Source: Funneliformis mosseae
Lineage: Eukaryota; Glomeromycota; Glomeromycetes; Glomerales; Glomeraceae
Assembly: GCA_910592005.1 (NCBI GenBank)
Contig: CAJVPP010001253.1
Span: 1-21,396, forward strand
Length of the DNA: 21,396 nucleotides
Direction of reading: 5' to 3'
Positions 2,907-19,988 of this stretch are shown here, piece by piece. How positions within the stretch are numbered: position 1 is the first letter of the stretch; every line of letters starts with the position of its first letter. A program made the position numbers and the translations under genes. The notes under the pieces are model-generated. The model ran no database searches and was not told the DNA's origin. It saw nothing but the letters and a program-made list of their open reading frames with translations.

Positions 2907-3301
2907 ATGGCCGGTAATTAAAGCGTTTTCGATTTTTGCCTTATTTCAGAAAATATTAATCTAATTAAATTTTAAATTTAATATTTGTAATAGGAAAAGG
3001 TATTCCAACAGTGATTTTATTAAAGTTTGATCGACATTTTTGCGTGCTAAATACAGTAATTCGTAATATATTAGAATCAGTTTCGAAAATTTTTGTATCT
3101 AGAGGTAATGTGATATTTATCTACATAAACAAAAAGTTCGATTCTTGCATACCTTATTAATTCGTATAATGTTATATTCAAAGGTAATTATAATATCATG
3201 TATTAGAAACTTGTTCATATCTCAAGCTTAAAACTAAGTAGTTTTATAAAAAAATATACTTCAAAAATAATTAGAACCTGTCGAATCTTCTACATCCAAA
3301 G
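2907..3301 (+). CDS. Candidate first exons of the array gene
   Basis: ATG at 2907 has a good context (ACCATGGCC). The model has four short exons: 2907-2913 (7 nt), 2994-2999 (6 nt), 3081-3104 (24 nt) and 3275-3301 (27 nt). Introns are 80, 81 and 170 nt, with donors GTAATT, GTATTC, GTAATG and GTAAGG and acceptors ATAG, CAG and TTAG. The 7-nt first exon sets phase 1 and every later exon is a multiple of three, so the frame arrives at the array in phase 1, as the downstream gene requires. It decodes to MAGKVSKIFVSR, then EPVESSTSK, with no stop. The 170-nt intron may hide another 3-nt exon, AAG at 3181-3183, followed by GTAATT but preceded by CA instead of AG. An alternative model uses a longer exon ending at 3183, which changes phase. 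These exons are predictions from signals only. Confidence 0.45.
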
Positions 3302-3368
3302 GTAAGGCAATATTTGATATGCTTAAAATTTGACATTTATAAAAATATCCTATAATATTACTAAATAG

Positions 3369-5685
3369 ACAGTAATTTAACTTTGATTAATTATCAATAA
3401 TTTTATAATTCTAATTGTATTTTATATTTAATCAATCGATAAATTTATAAACTAATAAATTTATTATATTATAATTTTAAATTATTGATTATATAGAACG
3501 TAAGTTAGATTACTAGTTGTCGTTTATTTATAAATTTAATATAAATTAACATTATTCAATGTTTAATATAGACGGTAAGTTAATTGATTATATGTTATCG
3601 TTCTATTATACATATTTTATAAACTTAATATATTTTTTTATACTTAACATTATTCAATATAGAACGTAAGTTAATTGATTATTAATTATCGTTAATTTAT
3701 GCATATTATAAACTCTCATAAATTTATTATAATTAAAATTATTCAATGTTTGATATAGTCGGTGCGTTATTTAATTACTAATTATCGTTTATTTATGTAT
3801 AATTAACCATAATTAACAGCTTTCTAAATTTATAAATTTATAATCATTAACGTTATTCAATGTTAACACTATATACTAAATTTATTATTATTCAATGTTG
3901 GATGATATAGAAGGTAAGTTATTTGATTACTAATTATCGTTATTTATGCATAATTTATAAAATATACTAATTTAATATTTAAAATTATTAAACTTTGATG
4001 ATATAGAGCGTAAGTTATTTGATTAATAATTATCATTCATTTATTTAAATTTATAATATATATTTTAATTTATTATAATTAACATTATTTAATGTTTGAT
4101 GATATAGCCAGTAAGTTATTTGATTACTATTTATCGTATAAATATAATTTATAAAATATACTAAATTTAGTATTTAAAATTATTCAATGTTTGATGATAT
4201 AGAAAGTAAGTTATTTGATTACTATTGTCGTTATTTATAAAATATACTAAATGTAATATTTATAATTATTCAATGTTTGATGATATAGTCAGTAAGTTTA
4301 TTTACTTATTATCGTTTATTTAAGTATAATTCGTAAAATATATTAAATTTTGTATTTAAAATCATTCAATATTTGATGACTATAGTCAGTAAGTTATTGA
4401 ATTATTAATTTTTATTTATTTATTTATAATTTATAATATTTACTAAATTTATTATTATTTATTTTATATATAGTTTGTAAGTTATTTGATATTATTTATT
4501 TAAGTATAATTTATAAATATACTAATTTAGTATTTATAATTATTCAATGATTTAGCCCGTAAGTTATTTGATTACTAAATATTGTATGTTTCAATATAAT
4601 TCATAAAGTATACTAAGTTTAGTGTGTTTAAAATTATTCAATAATATAGCCCGTAAGTATTTGATTAATAAATATCATTTGTTTAAATATTATTCATAAA
4701 ATGTACTAAATTTAATATTTAAAATTATTCATTAATATAGCCCGTAAGTTATTTGATCACTAAATATTGTTTGTTTAAGTATAATTCATAAAAATATACT
4801 AAATTTAGTAATTAAAATTAATCAATTATATAGCCCGTAAGTTAGTTGATTAGTAAATATTGTTTATTTAAGTATAATTCGTAAAATATATTAAATTTAG
4901 TATTTAAAATTATTTAATGATATAGCCAGTAAGTTGTATAATTACTAAATATTATTTGTTTAAATATAATTCATAAAATATACTAATTTAGTATTTAAAA
5001 ATATTCAATGTTTGATAATAGTCAGTAAGTTATTTGTTTACTAATTATCATTTATTTTTTTTATAATTATAAATATATTCTAAATTTATTATAATTAATA
5101 TTTTTTTATAGTTTGTAAGTTATTTGATTACTTAAATCATTCATTTAAGTATAATTTAATTTGTAAATATACTAATTTAGTATTTATTATTATTCAATAA
5201 TCTAGCTCGTAAGTTATTTAATTACCAAATATCATTTATTTAAATATAATTCATAAAGTATACTAAATTTAATATTTAAAATTATTCAATGATATATAGC
5301 CTGTAAGTTATTTGATTACTAAATATACATAATATCATTTGTTTAAATATAATATATAAAATACACTAAGTTTAGTATTTAAAATTATTCAATGCTTGGA
5401 AATATAGTCAGTAAGTTATTTAATTACTAATTATCATTTATTTATTTAAATTTATAATACAATACACTAAATTTTTATAACTAATAGGTCGTAAGTTATT
5501 TGATTAGATTATTAATTATCATTTTTATATGTATAATTATATAATACACTAAATTTAATATTTAAAATTATCCAATATTTGATGATATAGTTTGTAAGCT
5601 TTTTGATTACTAATTGTTGTTTATTTAAGTATAATTTATAAAAAATATTAAATTTATAATTTATAATTATTCAATAATATAGCTC
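3369..5685 (+). other. Microexons 1-25 (positions and triplets)
   Basis: Start positions and triplets: 3369 ACA; 3497 AAC; 3572 ACG; 3663 AAC; 3759 TCG; 3911 AAG; 4007 AGC; 4108 CCA; 4203 AAA; 4289 TCA; 4386 TCA; 4474 TTT; 4556 CCC; 4650 CCC; 4741 CCC; 4834 CCC; 4926 CCA; 5022 TCA; 5112 TTT; 5206 CTC; 5300 CCT; 5408 TCA; 5488 GTC; 5591 TTT; 5683 CTC. In phase 1 (last base of one triplet plus first two of the next) numbers 4-20 read ELEEPKIIISPPPPIIS. Four successive CCC exons (13-16) sit in nearly identical units, which suggests recent unit duplication. Number 5 has a GTGCGT donor, and the following 149-nt intron looks like two fused units. Confidence 0.75.
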
Positions 5686-5774
5686 GTAAGTTATTTGATT
5701 ACTAAATATTATTTGTTTAATTATAATTCATAAAATATACTAAACTTAATATTTAACATTATTCAATAATATAG

Positions 5775-7984
5775 CCAGTAAGTATTTGATTACTAAATAT
5801 CATTTGTTTAAGTATAATTCGTAAAATATATTAAATTTAATACTTAAATTTCTTCGATGTATTATGATATAGAAAGTAAGTTATTTGATTATTAATTATT
5901 AAATTTACATATAATATATAAAATATACTAAGAATAATATTTAAATTATTTAATATTTGATGATATAGTTCGTAAGTTATTTGATTACTAAAGATCGTTT
6001 GTTTAAGTATAATTTATAAATATATTAAATAATATTTAAAATTATTTAATGTTTGATAATATAGTTCGTAAGTTATTTGATTACTAATTATGATTATTTA
6101 TTTATAATTTATAATAAATATTAAATTTGTATTTAAAATTATTTAATGATATAGCTCGTAAGTTATTTATTTATTACTAAATATTTTTTTAAGTATAATT
6201 CATAAATATGCTAAATTAAATATTTAAAATTATTCAAAATTAGATGATATAGTTCGTAAGTTATTTGATTACTAATGATTCTTACGCATAATTTATAATA
6301 TATACTAAATATTTATTTAAAATTATTCGAAATTAGATGATACAATTTGTAAGTTATTTGATTACTAATTATTATTATTTACGCATAATTCATAAAATAT
6401 AATAAATTTAGTATTTATAATTAATCAATAATATAGCTTGTAAGCTATTTAATTACTATATATCATTTGTTTAAGTATAATTTGTAAAATACACTAAATT
6501 TAGTATCTAAAATTTTATATTTGATGATATAGTTTGTAAGTTATTTGATTACTAATTATTGTTTATAAAAGTTAATTTATAAAATATACTAAATAATAAA
6601 TATGTAATTAATAATATTATAGCTCGTAAGTTATTTGTCGCTAAATATTAATTGTTTAAGTATAATTCATAAAATATGTATACTAAATTTAGTATTTCAA
6701 ATTATTTAATTATATAGCCCGTAAGTTATTTGATTACCAAATATCATTTTTAAGCATAATTTATAAAAATACTAAATTTAATATATAAAATTATTTAATG
6801 TGCTACGATACAGTTCGTAAGTTATTTTTTTTTACTAATTATTGTATTGTTATTTACAAATAATTTATAAAATATACTAAAAAGCTAATATTTAAAATTA
6901 TTTAATATTTGATGATATAGTTCGTAAGTTATTTGATTATCAAATATTGTTTGTTTAATATAAATTATAAAATATATTAAATTTAGAATTATTTTTTGAT
7001 TATATAGTTCGTAAGTTATTTAATTACTAATTATCATTATTTATGTATAATTAATAAAAGATATAATTTATTTATAATTATTCAATAATATAGCACGTAA
7101 GTTATTTGATTACTAAATATCATTTATTTAAGTATAATTCTTAAAATATACTAATTTTAGTATTTAAAATTACTAAATGATATAGCTTGTAAGTTATTAG
7201 TATTAAATATTGTGTTTTATGTATAATTCTAAAATATACTAAATTAGTATTTAAAATTATTCAATGATATAGCCAGTAAGTTTTTTTAATTTACTAAATA
7301 TTGTTTATTTAAATATAATTTTAAAATATTCTAAATTTAATATTTATAATTATTCAATGATATAGCAAGTAAGTTATTAGATTATTATATATTATTTATT
7401 TATATTAAATTTATAAAATAGTAAATTTAGTATTTAAAATTATTCAATATTCTAGACCGTAAGTTATTTGATTACTAATTATCATTATTTACACATAATT
7501 TATAAAATAAACTAAATTTATTATTAAAATTATTTAATATTTAACAAAATAGAATGTAAGATATTTGATTACTAGTTATTATTTATTTATAAACTTTAAT
7601 AATTTTATATAATTATTCAATTTTAATATAGATGGTAAGTTAATTAATATGATTTTTATTATATATTAAATTTATTAAAATCTTTGATGATATAGCAAGT
7701 AAGTATTCAATTACTAGTTATCATTTAATTAAGTATAATTTATAAAATATACTAAATTCATTATAATTGAAATTATTCAATATTTGATGATATAGAACGT
7801 AAGTTATTTAATTACTAATTATCATTTATTTAAGTATAATTTATAAATATATTAAATTCATTATAATCGAAATTATTCAATAATTGATAATATAGAACGT
7901 AAGTTAATTATTAATTATCATTTATTTATGTATAATTATAAATATACTAAATTTATTATTTAAATTATTTTGATAATATAGAAG
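5775..7984 (+). other. Microexons 26-50 (positions and triplets)
   Basis: Start positions and triplets: 5775 CCA; 5873 AAA; 5969 TTC; 6065 TTC; 6155 CTC; 6253 TTC; 6346 TTT; 6437 CTT; 6533 TTT; 6623 CTC; 6718 CCC; 6814 TTC; 6921 TTC; 7008 TTC; 7094 CAC; 7186 CTT; 7273 CCA; 7366 CAA; 7456 ACC; 7553 AAT; 7632 ATG; 7696 CAA; 7796 AAC; 7896 AAC; 7982 AAG. Phase 1 decoding of 26-44 is PKILPLLSFSPLLLPPSTN; 45-50 read QYAKQQ. Number 32 (6346) is preceded by ACAA rather than an AG, the only broken acceptor in the array. Number 37 uses CAG. Confidence 0.75.
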
Positions 7985-8079
7985 GTAAGTTATATGATTA
8001 CTAATTATTGTTTATTTAAGTATAATTTATAAAATATACTAAATTTTGTATTTAAAATTATTAATATTTGATGATATAG

Positions 8080-10325
8080 TCAGTAAGTTATTTATTTGTT
8101 TATTATTAATTATTTATGTATAATTTATAATATATACTAAATTAGATTTATAATTATTTAATAAAATAGCCTGTAAGTTTAATGATTTCTAAAATTTATT
8201 TATTACAAGTATAATTCATAATATATACTAATTAGTATTTAAAATTATTTAATAATATAGCTTGTAAGTTATTTAATTACGAAATATTATTTAATTATGT
8301 TTAATTATAAAATATATTAAATTTTGAATTTAAAATTATTAAATGATATAGCCAGTAAGTTGTTTGGTTACTAAATATTATTTATTTAAATATTATTTAT
8401 AAAATATATTAAATTTAATATTTAATATTAATCAATGATATAGCTCGTAAGTTATTTGATTACTAAACATTATTTGTTTACGTATAATTCATAAAATATA
8501 CTAATTTAATAATGAAAATTATTTAATATTTAATGAATATTTAATAATATAGAGTGTAAGTTATTTGATTACTAGTTATCATTATTTATAAACTTTAATA
8601 AATTTAATATAATTGTCATTATTCTATATTTAATATAGATGGTAAGTTAATTGATAATTTATTTATAAACTTTTATAAATTGTTTATAATTAATATTATT
8701 TAATATTTGATAATAGGTTGTAAGTTACTTGATTACTAATTTTTGTTTATTTTAATGTATAATTATATATTAAATTTATTTAAAATCTTTAATAAATAGC
8801 AAGTAAGTTATTTTATTACTAATTATTAATTTTTAAGAATAATTTATAAAATATACTAAATTCATTATAATTAAAATTATTCAATATTTGATGATATAGA
8901 ACGTAAGTTATTTGATTACTTATTATCATTTATTTATGTATGATTATAAATATATTAAATTATTATTTAAATTATTTTGGTAATATAGGAGGTAAGTTAT
9001 TGATTACTAATTATTATTTATTTATATATATATTTACTTAGTTATTATATTTAATGTTTAATGATATAGCTGGTTAGTTATTTTATTAATTATCATTTAA
9101 TTAATTAAAATTTATAAATATATTAAATTTAAAATTAAAATTATTATATTAATGATATAGCAAGTAAGTTATTTAATTACTAATTCTTATATAATTTATA
9201 ATATATATTAAATTTAATATTTAATATTTTATGATATAGCTTGTAAGTTATTTGATTACTAGTTATTATTATTTATATATTATATATAAAAATACACTAA
9301 ATTTTATATTTAAATTATTCAATATTTGATGATATAGTTAGTAAGTTATTTGATTATTCATTATCATTAATTTATTTATATAATATATTAAATTTAATAT
9401 AAACTTATTTAATATTAGATGATATAGCCAGTAAGTTTATTTTATTACTAATTAATATTTTTATGTATAATTATAAATATTCTAAATTTATTATTTAAAA
9501 TTATTTAATGTTTAAAGATATAGAAGGTAATTTAATTGATTACTAATTATTATTTTTTTATAAATTATACTAATTTATTATAATTAAAAATTATTCAATA
9601 TTCATGATATAGTCTGTAAGTTATTTGATTACTAATTATTTATTTATTAATATATAATTTTAATATACAGTATACTAAATTTAATATTGTTAATATTTTT
9701 TAATGTTTATATAGCAAGTAAGTTATTTGATTATTAATTTTTATTATATTTTTAATAGAATATATTAAATTTAATATACAATATTTTATGATATAGCCGG
9801 TAAGTTATTTTATCACTAATTATCATTTTTTATATATATTTATAAAATACATTATAATTATTTAATTACTAATTATTATTTATTTATAAAATATACTAAA
9901 TTTATTATAATTAATATTATTCAATATTAGATTATACAGCCAGTAAGTTTTTTCATTGCTAGTTATTATTTATTTAAATATAATTTATAAATAAACTGAA
10001 TTTATTATATTAAATTTTTTTAATGTTTGATATATAGAACGTAAGTTATTTGATTATTAATTATTGTTTATTTATAAATAATTTTTAATTTAATTTAAAT
10101 TTATTATATTATTTAATTCTTGATAATATAGGAGGTAAGTTATTTATTACCTTATCAATTGTCATTTATTTAAGTATAATTTATAAAATATACTAATTTA
10201 TTATAATTTAAATATGATCGATAATATAGTTTGTAAGTTATTTAATTATTAAAATTGTTTATTTATATATTATTTATGATATATATTTATTAATTTATTA
10301 TAATTAATATTATTTAATATAGTCA
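8080..10325 (+). other. Microexons 51-75 (positions and triplets)
   Basis: Start positions and triplets: 8080 TCA; 8170 CCT; 8261 CTT; 8352 CCA; 8444 CTC; 8553 AGT; 8639 ATG; 8717 GTT; 8800 CAA; 8900 AAC; 8989 GAG; 9070 CTG; 9161 CAA; 9240 CTT; 9338 TTA; 9428 CCA; 9524 AAG; 9613 TCT; 9715 CAA; 9797 CCG; 9940 CCA; 10038 AAC; 10132 GAG; 10230 TTT; 10323 TCA. Phase 1 decoding of 51-67 is VTSSTQYGSKRAATFTK, more basic and less proline-rich than the earlier part. Numbers 56-61 (8553-8991) are a paralogous block of 45-50 (7553-7984). Number 62 has a GTTAGT donor and 67 a GTAATT donor. The 140-nt intron before 71 contains a second unit body without its junction. Confidence 0.75.
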
Positions 10326-10418
10326 GTAAGTTATTTGATTGCTTGTAATCATTTTTATATATTACATATAAAATTAAATAAATATAATATTAAATTATTC
10401 AATGTTTAAATAATATAG

Positions 10419-12459
10419 CTTGTGAGTTTTTGATTATAATTTATTGTATAATTTATAATATATACTAATTATCATTTAATATTTAATGATATAGCCTGTA
10501 AGTTACTTAATTACTAGTTATCATTTTTATATATTATTTATAAAATACATTAAATTTTATATTTAAATTAATAAATGTTTGATAATACAGTCAGTAAGTT
10601 ATATAATTTATTATTTATCATTTTTATTTGTATTATTATATAATATTTTAAATATATTATTTAAAATTATTTAATATTTAAAGACATAGATAGTAAGTTA
10701 TTTATTATTAATTATCATTTATTTATATATAATTTAATAATTTTACTAAATTTAATTTATTATAATTATTATAAAGATGGTAATTTATTTGATTATTAGT
10801 AAAATATTTAAATATAATTTATAAAATATATTAATTTATTATAATTTAAATTATTTAATATTTGATATAGAACGTAAGTTATTTGCTTGTTATTTATATA
10901 TAATATATAAAATATACTAATATTTGAATTATTTAATATTTAATGATATAGTCAGTTAGTATTTAATTTTTAGTTATTAGTTATTATTTATTTAAATTTT
11001 ATAAATAAACTTATAAAATTTATTATAATTAATATTCGATAATATAGAACGTAAGTTTTTGATTAATATTTATTATATTATATAAATACTAAATTATTAT
11101 AATAATATAATTAATATTATTTTAATATTTTAATTATATAGCTAGTAGATTATTTATTATTAATAATTGTTGATTTAAATATAACTTATTATATACTAAA
11201 TTTATTATATTAAAATTATTCAATATTTGGTGATTTAGTTAGTAAGTTATTTGATTACTAACAATTATTTATTTATGTATATTTATAATATATACTAAAT
11301 TTATTGTTTTAATATTTGATAATATAGAACGTAAATTATTTAATTATATATTATCATTTATTATATAAAATTTATAATTTATACTAAATTTAATAATTTA
11401 ATAGTTAATGATTTAGAATGTAAGTTTATTTTATTACTAATTATTATTTATTTATTTATAATTTATATTATATATTAAATTAATTATAATTATTATTATT
11501 TAATATTTAATAATATAGACGGTAATTTATTTGATTACTAATTAATTAATTATTTATATTATATATTAATTTAATTATTATTATTTAATAATATAGATGG
11601 TAAATTATTTGATTATTAATGATCATTTATTTTTATATAATTTATTAATTTTTATAAATTTAACTTATTTAAAATACTTAATAGAAGGTAATTTATTTAA
11701 TTACTATTATCATTTATTTAAGTATAATTATAATTTATACTAAATTTTTATAACTAACTTTATTTAATGTTTAATAATATAGATAGTAAGTTATTTGAAT
11801 TATTAATCATTTTATTTATATTTAATTTATAATCTAAATTAAAATTTATATTATTTAATATTCTATGTTTTATAATATAGAAGGTAAGTTATTTGATTAT
11901 TAATTATTGTTAATTAATTAATTATTTATTTATAAATTATATTTATTATAATTATATATTTATTTTAATATTATTCAATGGTTAATAATAGTCTGTAAGT
12001 TATTTAATACTAATTATTATTTATTTATATTTTATAATATATACTAATTATTATAATTTATATTATTTAATATTTAATAATATAGCCAGTGAGTTATTTG
12101 TTTACTAATTGTTATTTATTTTTAAATAATTTATAAACTTTAATAAATTTTTATTTTTAAAATTTTCAATATTTGATAATATAGGAAGTAAGTTATTTAT
12201 TATATGATTTTATAAATTTTAGATTTATTATAATTAATATAATTATCATTATTTCAACTGAATTTTATTTAATTATAGTTTGTAAGTAATTTATTTTTTC
12301 ATATGAATTTATTTTTAATTATTTTTATTATATTTTATTTACATATTTCAATAATTTTAGTAGGTATGTTGTATATTGTGTATTTTATTATTTGTTATAT
12401 AATTAAATAAAGCAAATTTTTTTGTAAAATAAATAAATTATAATTAAATATAATAGAAG
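10419..12459 (+). other. Microexons 76-98 (positions and triplets)
   Basis: Start positions and triplets: 10419 CTT; 10495 CCT; 10591 TCA; 10690 ATA; 10777 ATG; 10871 AAC; 10952 TCA; 11048 AAC; 11142 CTA; 11239 TTA; 11328 AAC; 11417 AAT; 11519 ACG; 11597 ATG; 11685 AAG; 11783 ATA; 11881 AAG; 11992 TCT; 12086 CCA; 12185 GAA; 12279 TTT; 12361 TAG; 12457 AAG. Phase 1 decoding of 82-98 is LKPIKQYDEDKVSRILE, continuing into E-FDIKDH of the exon at 12587. Here the unit bodies are the most decayed and donors the weakest (GTAATT, GTAAAT, GTGAGT, GTAGAT, GTATGT), but the 3-nt spacing is still exact. Triplet 97 is TAG, a stop in phase 0 but harmless in phase 1. The last intron is 127 nt (12460-12586). 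Confidence 0.72.
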
Positions 12460-12586
12460 GTAAATATTTATATGTTATATTTTGATAATATATAAAAAGT
12501 TAAAAAATGTGAATTTATTATATAATAATAATTATTGCAAAATTTAAAAATATTATTTATTAATTTAATAATTAACAATAAAATAG

Positions 12587-15500
12587 AATTTGATATAAAA
12601 GATCATTTAAGCCAAAAAATTTTAGATTGGCACATTTCTATTAGTCCAAATGGAGAATATATTATTATATTTAATCATAGTAATTTAAAATTATTATTAT
12701 TTAGATTATTATTCTATAAATTAATTCTTTATATTTTTATTATAGAAACTATGGAGTTTAAGATTATTAAATATAGTCAATATAAAGAAATTGATAAGGC
12801 AAACTTATGTAAATTTGATGATAGTCAGTTTGAAGAATATAAATCTCAATTTAAAGAAAGTATATATATGTTAGCAATATCAAATAAATTTGAAGACAAT
12901 TTCATTTTTGTTGCAATATCTTATGTAATAGAAATGGATTTACATGTTAAAAAAGATGAATCTGTTATTGATATTGATGATCAAATCACTATTGATAATA
13001 ATAAAAGAAAGCAACCTTTAAATGGAAAAACAATTATCTATAAAGTAATTTTAGATTCATCTAAACAAGAAAAAATTAAACCATACAAAAAAGAAGAAAT
13101 TGGTGGAATTGTTTCTTTTGTTTATGAGAAAAACAATTTTAGTAAAGCAGATTGCTTTATTTTTAATGCTAAAGGAATATATAGACTTTCATTTTCTTTA
13201 AAAAATTTTGATTATTTCAAATATCCAAAAATCCTTATGGATGAATTAGATACTTTATTTAAGAACAAATCTATTTTACGAATTAAAAATTGTATTTTTG
13301 ATCATTATTTTTATATTGAGCAATATAGAGAAGGTATTCAAGTTATGCAATTATATGATTTAAGAACTATGCAAATACAACAGATTTTTAATATATACGA
13401 AGAAAAAAATTATTCAAATAAAAATAGCAAATCTATATTAGCTATTTCAGAAAATGAGCAAATGATTGCCTTTTCTTCTGGATATGGAAAATTAGCTCTT
13501 TATTTAATAGAAAATGGTCTAGAAATTATTCATAAAGATTTTGGAAGGGATACAAAAATAATTGCTTCTGATTTTAAGGATGATAATAAATTAATGATTA
13601 TTATTAAAAAAGCTAAACACCAGGGGGTAAACATTTTACTTTGGAATTTATATACAAATGAATATCAATATAATATTCCATTAAACAAAGTTGATATTAG
13701 TAGTTTTAATAGTGCAAAAATTCCTGGTAAATATGTATCTGTTAATAAAAATGGAAGTATATTATCGATATATGATAGTTTACATTCATTAGTTAGCATG
13801 AAAGATGCAAATAATCCTACACCAAAATTTATAATATACAGAGATGGTAAAGTACCAACTGAAATGAACGTATTAAAATTTGATAATAATATTGTTTATC
13901 ATCAAGATCTTTCAAAAAAAGAAGCTCATATTCTTAAAGATAATATAGAACCATGGACAACAGATAATTATGAAAAGATATGGGTATATCTTGACTCAAA
14001 AGAATCAATGCAATTATATATTGGAAAATATACTATTCAAATATGGTGTAAAATTGAGCAAAAAGAAAATTTCGTTCTTAAATATTTTTGGGCTACTGAA
14101 GATTATAAATTACGAATATTCGAATTAGATATTTATGAAAATGGTTTTTCTCTCAAGTTAGAAAATAACATTCAGATTAAATGGTTCTATAATGATGATG
14201 ATATTAATTTAATTAAGCATGCTTGCGATTCCCTTGAATATCTAATTTATCAAAGATATAAATTAATTGGATTTGAAAATCAGCATGGTAATTATCAATT
14301 CATATTATTTATTTTAAAAAAGTTTTTTTTAATAATTTTTTACATTAATATTTTATATTAAATATAGTATTCGAGGAAATTAAGTATAATATTTCTCTTA
14401 TAGTTTGGAAATTTATTAGAAATTATCCGAATATTTGGAAAGTGTTGGATATTCATTATAACCTTATAGCAAAAATTATAATTGGTGGCACAAATACTCT
14501 CATTAAATTTATTCTATTTGGCGATGAAAAAGTAAAACTTAAATATTTACATATACCAAGAATATCTCGATGGATTAGTTCTGAAAAAATTACTAAAATA
14601 AATGATAATTTGAAAAAACCTACAAAGGAAAAAATTAATTTAAGTAAATTCAGTGATTTACAACTAGCTATTAAAATGTGTGAATCAGGAGGTAATTCCA
14701 TTATTTAAAAATTTACAAAATTTAATTATTTAATATTAATAAATAATTTTTTATAGATATTGAACGTAACCGTAGAATTTTAATTGTAACTTATTTACTT
14801 GAATATTATACAAAAAATGCAATTGAAAATCATGGATGGTTAATTACCATTTCAAAAGCATTACCAGATTTATATACATTTAAATTAGGTTTGTATTATT
14901 TTTGTATTATAATTTTTTTAAGATCATTTTTAACTTTTTTATTTTATTTTTAAATAGAGTATTTTGTGAGCGAATTATTTTACAAAACATGTATGGAAGG
15001 TATAGAAATATCAAATATTATTGAATATATGGATTTTATGCCTAAAAACTTTCATATTATTTCAAAAAAGTTTATAGCATTTAAACCAAATTCGAATTTT
15101 AAATCGACAAGTGTACCAGGACTTAATTTTACAGCTTTAAGAAATTATGTTAAAATTTTTTCCAACGATCATGAAAACTATTTTCCGGTTGTAAAAATAG
15201 TTCCTTTACATAATTTTACTGTTAATAGAATATCTCAAAAAACTTATGACTATGAAGGTTCATTTATTATCAAAATATTGAAACTATTATTTATTCCTCG
15301 AGGTTATTTTATTAATAATTCAGATATTGCAGAAAATTTTTCACAACTTAGTCCATTTGTTCAAATCGTTAGATTAGAAAGTAATGACATATTTAATAAT
15401 CCAGTAATGGAAGCTGTAATTAATTACAAATGGCGTCCGGCAAGAAATTATTTTCTTCGACTTTTCTTTATGTATATTTTATTCGCAGCTTGTTTTGCAA

Positions 15501-17030
15501 CTATTTGTGGAAATTACGTTGCACATTCTGAAATAACAGGAAGCCATTGTAATTTTTTATTATTCCTTTTAATTCTTTTCTATTATTTAGGATGCTATTT
15601 ATTAATTGTAGAATATACACAGTTTAGACATCGAGGCTGGAGATATTATATTAATTTATTTAATTGTACAGATTTAGCTTCAACTATCTTGGCAATTTTT
15701 GTAATGTCATATTGTGTTATTCCTTCATTTAATACTAAAAACGCTTTTGCTAATGCTAAGACCAGCCAAGAAAATACTATTGCAATTTCTTTTAGTATAC
15801 TATTATTGTGGTTTGAATTTGTATGTATCTAGCAATTTTTTTTTTTTAAAAAAATTTTTAACTGAAAATTAAATTATTTATCAAATAGATTTTATATCTT
15901 CGGTTATTATCAGGTAATATAGAAAAATTACATTGATGTTTATATTAAATATATTTAATTTCTACAATAATCGTTTCTTTTAGAACCAGCAAAATACATC
16001 TACATTATGTTAAATATTATTAAAGAGACTTGGATATTTCTTTCTTTTATGATTCTTGTAATGGCAGGATTAGCACATAGTTTTTTACTATTATTACAAT
16101 ATCCTGATTTTACAAATCTTACCGAAAATTCATCATCATCTACATTATTTACGGGTGATTCAACCGAGCTCAAAATTCAAAATGATTTTGATCGAACTGA
16201 GGATAACCCAGCTAAAAATTTCATTACCTCATTTCTTTCAACATATAATTGGTTAAATGGTAACTTTTTACAACAAGACACATGGAATCTTTGGGCAGTA
16301 AAAGTTATCACTTTTATTGGTAGCATTCTTTTAGTTACTATTCTACAAAATATGTATATTGCTTTTATGGGGTATGTTCATTTTATTTTCCCTTCAAGTT
16401 TTTTTTAAACCTAATTAATTAACGGTAATTCGTTAAAATAATTAAATACCTATTATTAGTGGTGTGTATTCTAAAGCATATGAGAAAGGTCGTGTTGCAT
16501 TATTACGATTTCGTGCAGAATCAATTTCAGACTATGAGGCATTAGATGAAATATATTTTTATCCTCCATCACCAGAACCAAAATATATTTATTATATAGG
16601 TAAATCAAAAAGTTATAATGAATGGGTTGCGAATGTTAAAAAATATAAGAAAAGAAACTTATATGAGGATTATGAAAAGAAAATGTTTGAAAGAAAATTA
16701 ACATATGAGGATGAAGAAGATGATTGTTCCGGTGATGTTGATAGTTCTGAAAGTGAAATAAAGAATGAAAAAACTAGCATTAAAGAGCTTAATAGTAAGT
16801 TAGTTAAGAAAGGAAAGGAAAATGAAATTAGTATTACTGAGCTTGATAATAAAGTTGCTAAGGAAGAAGACATTAACATTATTAATGATCTGTATAAAAA
16901 GATTAATGATTTTAATACTAAGATTAATGATCTTAATACTAAGATGAATGATTTTAATATTATAAATAATAGCAGGAATGATGAGCTTAATAGTAAGATT
17001 GATAAATTACTTAATGCAATCATTAAGTAA
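12587..17030 (+). CDS. Propeller-like / TRP-like ion channel protein, main exons
   Basis: Eight exons: 12587-12679, 12746-14287, 14368-14691, 14757-14888, 14958-15820, 15889-15913 (25 nt), 15984-16371, 16460-17030 (stop TAA). Introns are 66, 80, 65, 69, 68, 70 and 88 nt with GT/AG borders; five of the seven are phase 1. Residue numbers below assume the full upstream model (1431 aa). The N-terminal half, from DWHISISPNGEY at about 133, resembles a degenerate WD/propeller region. Six membrane segments lie near 980-1003, 1014-1034, 1055-1075, 1089-1110, 1128-1150 and 1220-1241, with a pore-like stretch WLNGNFLQQDTWNLW before the last, whose LVTILQNMYIAFMGG recalls TRP-type S6. A charged tail ends in a coiled coil. 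This is the family of large channel-like proteins I know from Glomeromycotina, probably plasma-membrane cation channels; ligand and ion are unknown. The first exon begins in phase 1 and has no ATG of its own, so it needs upstream exons, which the array supplies. An open frame continuing past 14287 to 14361 is intron read-through. Confidence 0.85.
16899..16961 (+). repeat. Three tandem 21-bp repeats in the coiled-coil tail
   Basis: Units at 16899-16919, 16920-16940 and 16941-16961 are near-identical (AAGATTAATGATTTTAATACT type). They encode successive seven-residue blocks INDFNTK, INDLNTK and MNDFNII near the C-terminus of the channel protein. Each repeat is one heptad, so changes in copy number would lengthen or shorten the coiled coil without shifting the frame. 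Confidence 0.85.
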
Positions 17031-18401: not shown

Positions 18402-18918
18402 ATGACACCTAACTGGATTCAAAGAAAATATTCTAATACAAGAATTTCAAAAGTTAATAAATATAACTTTAACTTTATTCATCGTAGTAGTAGAGACAGC
18501 TATGGTACAACATTATACTTAGTATGTATAATGTACGGGGAGCATGTTTATTAAAGACTAAATATGATACGATAATTGGTGGTTATAATTCTCTCGTTGG
18601 AATTACTATTTTCTTCGTAAAGGTGTAATTCGTAGTTATTATTGGTCTAATACACCAAAAGATTTATTTTTTCTTTAGGTGATGGAAACGATTTAAATAT
18701 TTTTAAGATTATTCGAGTTGTTAATAGCGATAATGCAATATATGGAAGTTATTATCGGAATTTACCATTAAATTTGGCAATAGCGATTTTGTTAAATTAC
18801 AATACTGGTACATTGCAATCAAGCCTATTATGAAAGTATCATTTTAGATATGAATAATTTCACCATTGAAGAAATGGAGATTCTTAGATTTATAATTTAT
18901 GAAGTATTTTTAATATAA
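18402..18918 (+). pseudogene. TLD-domain protein, frameshifted remnant
   Basis: Pieces in successive frames read in order as a TLD (TLDc) domain of the type expanded in Rhizophagus. From 18402 comes NWIQRK...YNFNFIHRSSRD, ending at a stop at 18552-18554. The next frame gives KTKYDTIIGGYNSL, a third WNYYFLRKGVIRSYYWSNT, then LGDGNDLNIFKIIRVVNSDN with AIYGSYYRNLPLNLA, and finally YYESIILDMNNFTIEEMEI to TAA 18916-18918. The IIGGYN and final EEMEI landmarks are characteristic of the family, whose intact members are linked to oxidative-stress responses. At least three frameshifts and internal stops mean it cannot make a full protein, unless the breaks are sequencing errors. It lies on the same strand as the channel gene and has no evident link to it. 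Confidence 0.7.
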
Positions 18919-19593: not shown

Positions 19594-19988
19594 AAATTTC
19601 GATTTCGGGTAATCCAATTTGAAATTTCAAATTTGGGCAATGCGACTTTGCTGCCCCAATTTAAAATCGGGAAATTAGAATTTGAGACATGCGATGCCCA
19701 AGTGACCATTGTACTATTTTAAAACTGAGGCAAATTGGAAATTGAGATATACGGTACCCCAAGTTGACTATTTCCCCAATTTAAAATTGAGGAAAATTGG
19801 AAACTGGGTACAGAGTGCCCTAAGTTTGCTATTGTCCCAATTTAAATTGTGCAATAAACAACTTGGGACATCACAAACATTGTCAGAGATCAAAGCCACA
19901 ATTGATCATAATAATTTATACACGTGGTTAATTATTGCTAAGTTCGGAGGTTTGAAATTTCAAGTTAGACTGCCCGAAATTGAAATTT
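19594..19988. repeat. Element with inverted arms around a 61-bp minisatellite
   Basis: The left arm 19594-19631 and right arm 19951-19988 are 38-bp inverted repeats matching at 33 positions by hand alignment. Between them are about 3.5 tandem units of 59-61 bp starting at 19654, 19713, 19774 and 19835, each with a CCCAATTTAAAATTGAGG-like start and GGTACxxxxTGCCC-like middle. The long open frame 19709-20035 is a by-product of the repeat. A decayed relative lies at 1995-2155. Confidence 0.65.

Follow-up and report, generated by a model that had tools for sequence, protein, structure and literature searches.

Very small exons have been regarded as an obstacle to spliceosome binding, and exons of 3 nt have been described one at a time. 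Schistosome micro-exon genes carry symmetrical small exons, mostly of 6-36 nt, whose skipping keeps the reading frame; introner-like elements are single insertions dispersed over many genes; and recursive splicing through adjacent 3' and 5' sites is a known phenomenon, in which classical ratchet points have a 0-nt exon. We describe an array of 97 putative three-base exons in the root-symbiotic soil fungus Funneliformis mosseae, found in a stretch of 21,396 nucleotides (contig CAJVPP010001253.1 of assembly GCA_910592005.1, positions 1 to 21,396 of the forward strand), hereafter the window. We discuss its geometry, its reading frame, its relatives elsewhere in the genome, and its probable origin.

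Several described systems come close to this array. Drosophila homothorax contains an isolated 3-nt microexon, micro-Ex8, reported with a list of other cases (PMC7392893). Arabidopsis APC11 contains a 1-nt exon, for which the authors propose intron definition together with recursive, successive splicing (PMC4674806). In aphids, the bicycle genes have very many small internal exons, nearly all of one phase, and megacycle has 118 exons for 2092 amino acids (about 53 nt per exon) with internal duplication (PMC9168663); pea aphid KQY1a has 37 exons of 6-416 bp (PMC7495047). Further systems for comparison are the schistosome micro-exon genes (PMC4350168) and the fungal introner-like elements, which are families of related introns (PMC4457414).

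On the plus strand of the window, between 3369 and 12459, 97 units of the form AG-NNN-GT stand in series. This count leaves out chance hits at 4623 and 5994 and overlapping echoes 4-8 bases downstream, where an AG lies within GTAAG. The original prediction had claimed 98 consecutive units, with about 97% of the DNA as intron. The run withstands comparison with shuffled sequence, at 97 units and not 98; the difference may stem from a unit near 6345 that has lost its AG (ACAA-TTT-GTAAGT). The exonic share of the array is 3.2%, as the prediction had it. With echoes included, the region contains AG-NNN-GT 128 times, whereas 100 dinucleotide shuffles averaged 13.6 and never exceeded 23; for AG-NNN-GTAAG the count is 82, and the shuffles averaged 0.19 and reached at most 2. 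The spacing is strict: of the occurrences of [TC]AG-Nk-GTAAG, 82 have k=3, 4 have k=12, and 1 has k=15, with none at any other k from 0 to 15.

The array introns have a median length of 91 nt (range 61-181; 92 of 96 within 55-112), and ACTAA is present in 65 of the 96, lying 15-60 bases from the acceptor in 50. In the first two triplet columns A, C, and T each account for about one third, and the third column uses all four bases; the flanking columns, six before and 11 after the triplet, are each 82-100% a single base. GC content is 41.6% in the triplets versus 8.7% in the intron interior. By structure, the units can be filed as microexons: exons of at most about 30 nt with AG/GT flanks and donor and acceptor consensus, of a length that is a multiple of three and keeps the frame. 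Their arrangement would be an extreme variant of that class. Searches of the window against Rfam and for tRNAs returned no match.

Such regularity could in principle belong to satellite DNA with an intron-like unit and no splicing. The tandem units of about 91 nt and the relatedness of the introns (mean identity 0.655) are what a satellite would show, yet its three free columns would have to sit inside conserved splice motifs, and the units do not behave as a tandem repeat without functional constraint inside. The genome at large speaks against it as well. In scans of the assembly (82.0 Mb, 4154 contigs), the pattern GTAAGT-N62..92-AG-N3-GTAAGT occurs 602 times versus 40 in a reversed control; with N4 spacing the counts are 23 and 88, and with N6 spacing 23 and 67. 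A spacing of 3 nt is far commoner than one of 4 or 6. The array pattern recurs in dozens of places, upstream of at least two gene families: arrays precede same-phase main exons in two unrelated gene bodies, those of the window gene's family and of a protein-kinase family. Together with the coding-type conservation reported below, these facts leave the satellite explanation with hardly any credibility.

The predicted gene of the window consists of the following features (a slash marks an exon junction here and below).

2907..2913, plus strand: predicted exon 1, ATG GCC G (M A G..), then GTAATTAAAGC; C907, a paralogue, shares this short exon together with its donor (ATG GAT G/GTAATTAAAGC).
2994..2999, plus strand: predicted exon 2, GAAAAG, 6 nt; the same exon, with AATAG before and GTATTC after it, in C907.
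3275..3301, plus strand: predicted exon 3, 27 nt, in-frame PVESSTSK, from a frame-blind parser; the C907 counterpart has 36 nt and the same ACATCCAAAG/GTAAGG end.
3369..12459, plus strand: putative array of 97 three-base exons with introns of 61-181 nt, from unit counts, stop tests, and column statistics.
6337..6348, plus strand: the unit with the lost AG acceptor (ACAA-TTT-GTAAGT); use of the nearest acceptor would give an in-frame 12-nt exon.
12587..12679, plus strand: first main exon (FDIKDHLSQKILDWHISISPNGEY..), preceded by AAAATAG, with 2 leading bases; the same phase is available in C907, C2700, and C1860.
12746..14287, plus strand: second main exon, 96% identical to Funneliformis caledonium P0001.
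14368..17030, plus strand: remainder of the gene body in ordinary exons, from tblastn of P0001 and P0013, open frames, and the sequence by eye.
14368-14691, 14757-14888, 14958-15820, 15889-15913, 15984-16371, and 16460-17030, plus strand: approximate exon bounds of that remainder, set by eye.

Exons 1 and 2 were set by comparison with C907 and not by the automatic parser, which instead placed an exon of 17 nt at 2994 and one of 6 nt at 3057. A 30-nt candidate exon before 3104 was unconfirmed and was not used.

The main exon dictates how the triplets must be read. It leaves 2 leading bases, so each codon consists of base 3 of one triplet and bases 1-2 of the next; the leader exons at 2907, 2994, and 3275 are all in the same phase as the array. 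In this forced frame, the 97 triplets hold 0 stops, and the other two frames hold 1 and 5. Order-shuffled triplets give a mean of 4.9 stops, with a probability of 0.00175 for none. From 3275 on, a frame-blind parser finds only exons that are multiples of three (96 of 3 nt, and one each of 12, 27, and 33 nt), and its chain stays open in the forced frame. The joined leader exons and array read MAGKEPVESSTSKDKHELEEPKIIISPPPPIISPFSLSPK...KVSRILEEFDIKDHLSQKILDWHISISP with no stop, and the predicted protein, MAGKEPVESSTSK...WHISISP, runs from the ATG at 2907 through the leader exons and all 97 triplets with 0 stops. The predicted joined string begins ATGGCCG/GAAAAG/AACCTGTCG...AAAG/ACAAACACG and ends ...GAATTTTAGAAG/AATTTGATATAAAAGATC; peptides of the predicted spliced product include SPPPPIISPFSLSPK and VFTSFNNELKPIK.

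Silent variation at some third bases (N G L I K I) at first made it attractive to read the triplets as whole codons (phase 0). This reading was ruled out: ATG exons and main exons both force the split frame, and phase 0 has stops in the window and in C929, C301, C2836, C1717, C3961, and C3031. The earlier proposal that each codon's worth of sequence is its own exon is supported as regards codon-length coding exons and amended for the codons themselves, which are split 1/2 between neighboring exons.

The depletion of stops in this frame extends beyond the window. In 14 anchored arrays (379 triplets, 342 pairs), the forced frame contains 1 stop versus 16.68 expected, and none of 4000 order shuffles was as low; the other junction frame contains 85 versus 76.5 expected, and the whole-triplet frame 8. 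When three unanchored arrays are added, the 17 arrays contain 4 stops versus 21.4, 3 of the 4 in C1180. Anchoring was by the main exon or by homologous leader triplets; C301, C41, C1065, and C722 were anchored by homology of 5' triplets or leader exons. The table is drawn up without C1860, which has few triplets and gave no clean chain, and without C2700 and C907, in which some exons exceed 3 nt. Among five loci, C3961 and C3031 failed the main-exon pattern and were read separately, with a weak join to the main exon; four of those five were already known to hold units, and none was chosen by frame.

Triplets are also conserved where introns are not. In eight paralogous kinase arrays, the first six triplets have an identity of 0.80 at the same index versus 0.30 between indices; the introns, at 0.579 for the same index versus 0.555 for unlike ones, are near background. 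The predicted residues, WI[DNAK][EQK]N, have an amino acid identity of 0.714 versus 0.027 between indices; W, I, and N are present in all eight arrays, the isoleucine spelled ATT in five and ATC in three. Addition of C2836, C3961, and C41 (11 arrays) gives 0.772 versus 0.315 for triplets, 0.602 versus 0.571 for introns, and 0.664 versus 0.042 for residues; C2836 reads WRINN, departing at three of the five residues. The eight arrays were picked for a recognizable starting triplet series, which biases the comparison toward conservation, and the set is drawn without C3031, C1180, and C269, which have other starting triplets.

Stop depletion and triplet conservation point to translation, since sequence that is never translated has no reason for either. 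This bears on a rival account that treats the stretch from the 27-nt exon to 12587 as a single large intron, or as a scaffold for recursive splicing, with the triplets as ratchet sites or relics that never enter the protein. A direct join of 3301 to 12587 would also be in frame, as both are phase 1/2, and recursive use of adjacent 3' and 5' sites is mentioned in PMC4674806. However, triplets of this kind predict neither the stop depletion (1 versus 16.68) nor the amino acid conservation between paralogues with diverged introns, and true ratchet points, [TC]AG-N0-GTAAG, occur 0 times in the region. We consider this account improbable. It is likely that the array is instead the 5' coding part of the gene: 97 three-base exons that, once joined and translated, would extend the N-terminus of the protein that continues at 12587. 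We infer both splicing and translation of the triplets from genomic sequence; by this prediction, the spliced array would contribute about 97 amino acids to a single protein. The original prediction of one gene region gains support from the open reading frame (ORF) between the ATG exon and the downstream gene, the stop depletion, the 3-base spacing, and the triplet conservation. It can be extended in two respects: the predicted start of the gene lies farther upstream, at 2907, and this array is one among many.

Paralogues of the window gene bear on the model. In C907, the leader consists of the same three exons (ATGGATG, GAAAAG, and 36 nt ending ACATCCAAAG), followed by 42 hand-set small exons of 3, 9, and 39 nt with 0 stops. 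It reads MDGKETFKTSEASTSK...SPPPPTIYSPP...WHISISP, and its full open string is MDGKETFKTSEASTSK...SKIYSPPPPTIYSPP...KLIKESNWHISISP. The other two frames have 3 stops each, 1 and 2 of them within the array and the rest in the main exon. Three of the hand-set exons have AAG acceptors, the exon at 6967 is two bases off with the frame unchanged, and units near 3989, 5277, 7241, and 7452 were excluded. Proline runs are spelled differently in the two genes, with CCC triplets in the window and CGC and CAC in C907. Multi-exon blocks also recur in C907 (L057 3090-7790), among them repeated 9-nt exons (CCACGGAGG), spelling PTEEA-like repeats. In C2700, the forced frame is open and the other frames have 3 and 5 stops; one of its exons can be read as 33 or 15 nt, in frame either way.

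The second family is that of the kinases, where several arrays lie directly upstream of the family's main exon (ICxNCNK...WCK.CNS..). The cleanest case is C505, in which an ATG exon and a 39-nt exon lead into 15 triplets, followed by an exon of 18 nt, 2 more triplets, and the main exon, with 0 stops. One of its triplets, at 1343, has a weak donor, and its last intron is 185 nt; the next exon matches Pfam PF07714 (protein tyrosine/serine-threonine kinase) at 108.6 bits, with a cut-off of 23.1. In the models of the window, C907, and C505, the internal exons at the array are all of phase 1/2. The kinase main exon has at least 153 matches in the genome. Among the matches listed, on contigs up to C832, arrays are carried by 9 of 18 contigs with matches of at least 54% identity and by 0 of 24 with weaker matches only; among these contigs, arrays seem to mark one kinase subclade. 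The distant kinases C1527 and C812 have a methionine shortly before the main-exon motif, which is a zinc-finger-like stretch, and no array in the stretch inspected.

By eye, the kinase leader exons repeat an EPVSD/APTxxELN theme, and the window leader reads EPVESSTSK. EPVSD-like motifs, often more than one per gene, occur in the leaders of C1135, C393 (L025), C929 (L028), C1065 (L029), and C722 (L026). A 5' module shared between the kinase and window gene families is possible.

Several observations weigh against the coding interpretation. C1135 has one forced-frame stop among close pairs, two in a stricter parse, and, at looser parser thresholds, a 44-nt exon and 4 stops. C1180, whose frame is unanchored, has three stops versus 1.9 expected, and C393 has gaps and a broken leader; these three arrays look damaged or decayed. 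Some acceptors are AAG (C907, C1135). The automatic parse depends on its thresholds: C907 has 0 stops at stricter settings and 5 at looser ones, with exons of 1, 8, 8, and 20 nt. C1860 has only about six triplets, and automatic parses gave no open chain there. Between the most similar window introns (14 pairs), divergence is greater in the triplets than in the introns, a pattern other than that of purifying selection; the window tail may therefore be under relaxed or diversifying selection, unlike the conserved starts of the kinase arrays. Homogenization of the introns is another possible source of this excess. Searches of the protein database with predicted N-termini gave no hit at E<=10 for 34 candidates and none at E<=0.01 for 14; this is expected if gene finders skip 3-nt exons, and equally if the triplets are never joined. 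Finally, since every subset of triplets keeps the frame, inclusion of all of them does not follow.

This last point opens a variant nested within the coding interpretation: the triplets may be real but optional splice units, with each transcript taking a different subset, so that the array would generate a range of N-terminal isoforms. All 97 units share one length, 3 nt, and one phase, and any skipping keeps the frame; units with lost or weak acceptors exist (6337-6348, and the AAG acceptors in C907 and C1135). On the other hand, the near-consensus donors of most window units (GTAAG in 82) argue for efficient use. We hold optional inclusion to be possible, though on the doubtful side.

If the units are spliced, the introns would probably be recognized by intron definition with near-consensus GTAAGT donors, which is plausible given that the introns are short and the donors near consensus. 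With sites only 3 nt apart, binding of two spliceosomes side by side is improbable, and neighboring introns would therefore probably be removed one after another, each step adding 3 nt to a growing upstream exon. The stepwise model outlined for APC11 (PMC4674806) would here run about 100 times.

The array itself probably grows by tandem duplication of a unit of intron plus triplet. As each unit is exactly 3 nt of exon in the same phase, duplication can never break the frame, and the tail could gain, lose, or alter its codons one at a time. Support for unit duplication comes from the relatedness of the window introns, from triplet identity, which climbs from about 0.28 to about 0.62 as the introns become more alike, and from an excess of neighboring identical triplets (8 versus 3.9, P 0.04). 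In C3961 (L071 769-1117, reverse-complement coordinates), the spacing of five units at exactly 87 nt suggests that duplication there was very recent. The predicted tail of the window abounds in P, S, L, and K, and those of the kinases in D, N, and Y; such compositions would fit disordered extensions.

A different origin, with the same product, is that introner-like introns were inserted into an older continuous exon. In its favor, the window introns are far more alike (about 0.66) than the triplets (about 0.3). The correlation of triplet with intron identity and the exact spacing in C3961 oppose it, and the introns are not near-identical copies at many unrelated sites, as introners would be (0.579 versus 0.555 in the same-index comparison of eight loci; 0.655 in the window). 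A search of the genome for the kinase N-terminus in one continuous exon gave 86 matches, most of them from query residue 24 on, near the main exon. At C1527 the match runs stop-free from residue 19 at 34% identity, at C1915 the upstream match looks like intron sequence, and at C1261 there is no clear exon in the stretch inspected; the WIDEN stretch was found in one continuous exon in none of C1527, C1261, C1915, and C812, four of the 86 loci. We regard insertion as rather unlikely.

Beyond the array, the gene body from 12587 has relatives among the proteins of F. mosseae, F. geosporum, and Rhizophagus. These and the match to F. caledonium mark the genome as that of an arbuscular mycorrhizal fungus, most likely one of the Glomeraceae, as is F. 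caledonium. The database entries of the relatives P0003 and P0004 start past the WHISISP stretch, with an internal methionine (MEFK.. and MEYK..). The gene body may be ion-channel-like; no Pfam family scored above its cut-off, a Protein Data Bank (PDB) sequence search gave no solved relative, and the AlphaFold model of P0013, with a mean predicted local distance difference test (pLDDT) of 40, is too poor for use. The last exon holds a 21-bp in-frame repeat (16881-16959) of NDLNTKI heptads, coiled-coil-like by eye. Elsewhere in the window, an open frame at 18651-18833 (..FSLGDGNDLNIFKIIRVVNSDNAIYG..) looks decayed and presumably resembles a fragment of a TLDc-type protein, and a tandem repeat with a unit of 61-62 bp (2.5-3.2 copies) lies at 19652-19846.

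Taken together, the arrays suggest a broader proposal, which we advance tentatively and at somewhat less than even confidence: that the N-termini of gene families may be written by about a hundred codon-length exons in series, through stepwise splicing, frame-safe copying of units, and optional skipping, and that such tails may be re-spelled by evolution and perhaps per transcript. We found no precedent for it. If it is true, one genome would contain dozens of arrays with 20 to 97 such exons in a row, which would show that codon-length exons can be spliced in series as a matter of routine. Part of the proteome of these fungi would escape gene finders and read aligners, with the internal starts of P0003 and P0004 as examples, the arrays would be a natural system for measuring splice fidelity over about 100 tiny steps, and frame-safe unit duplication would be a route to new coding sequence.

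Searches of open-licence PubMed Central, which excludes most subscription journals and bioRxiv, brought up no report of runs of 3-nt exons or of microexons in arbuscular mycorrhizal fungi, in keeping with the earlier statement that no gene is known with a run of nearly 100. Within the literature covered, this array would be, as far as we found, the most finely chopped coding region described. Homothorax micro-Ex8 and APC11 share with the array an exon of at most 3 nt between introns; they are single microexons, versus 97 in a row here. A previously described fungal microexon is likewise fungal, but single. The schistosome genes share symmetrical small exons, but not in arrays of 3 nt, and introner-like elements are dispersed, whereas here the related introns stand in tandem within one gene region. 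The bicycle and megacycle genes of aphids encode proteins with CYC motifs in a different kingdom, and the predicted array peptide of the window is without cysteine. Their likeness to the array lies in many small internal exons of the same phase; here these are 3 nt each, in a fungus, and upstream of kinase and other gene bodies.

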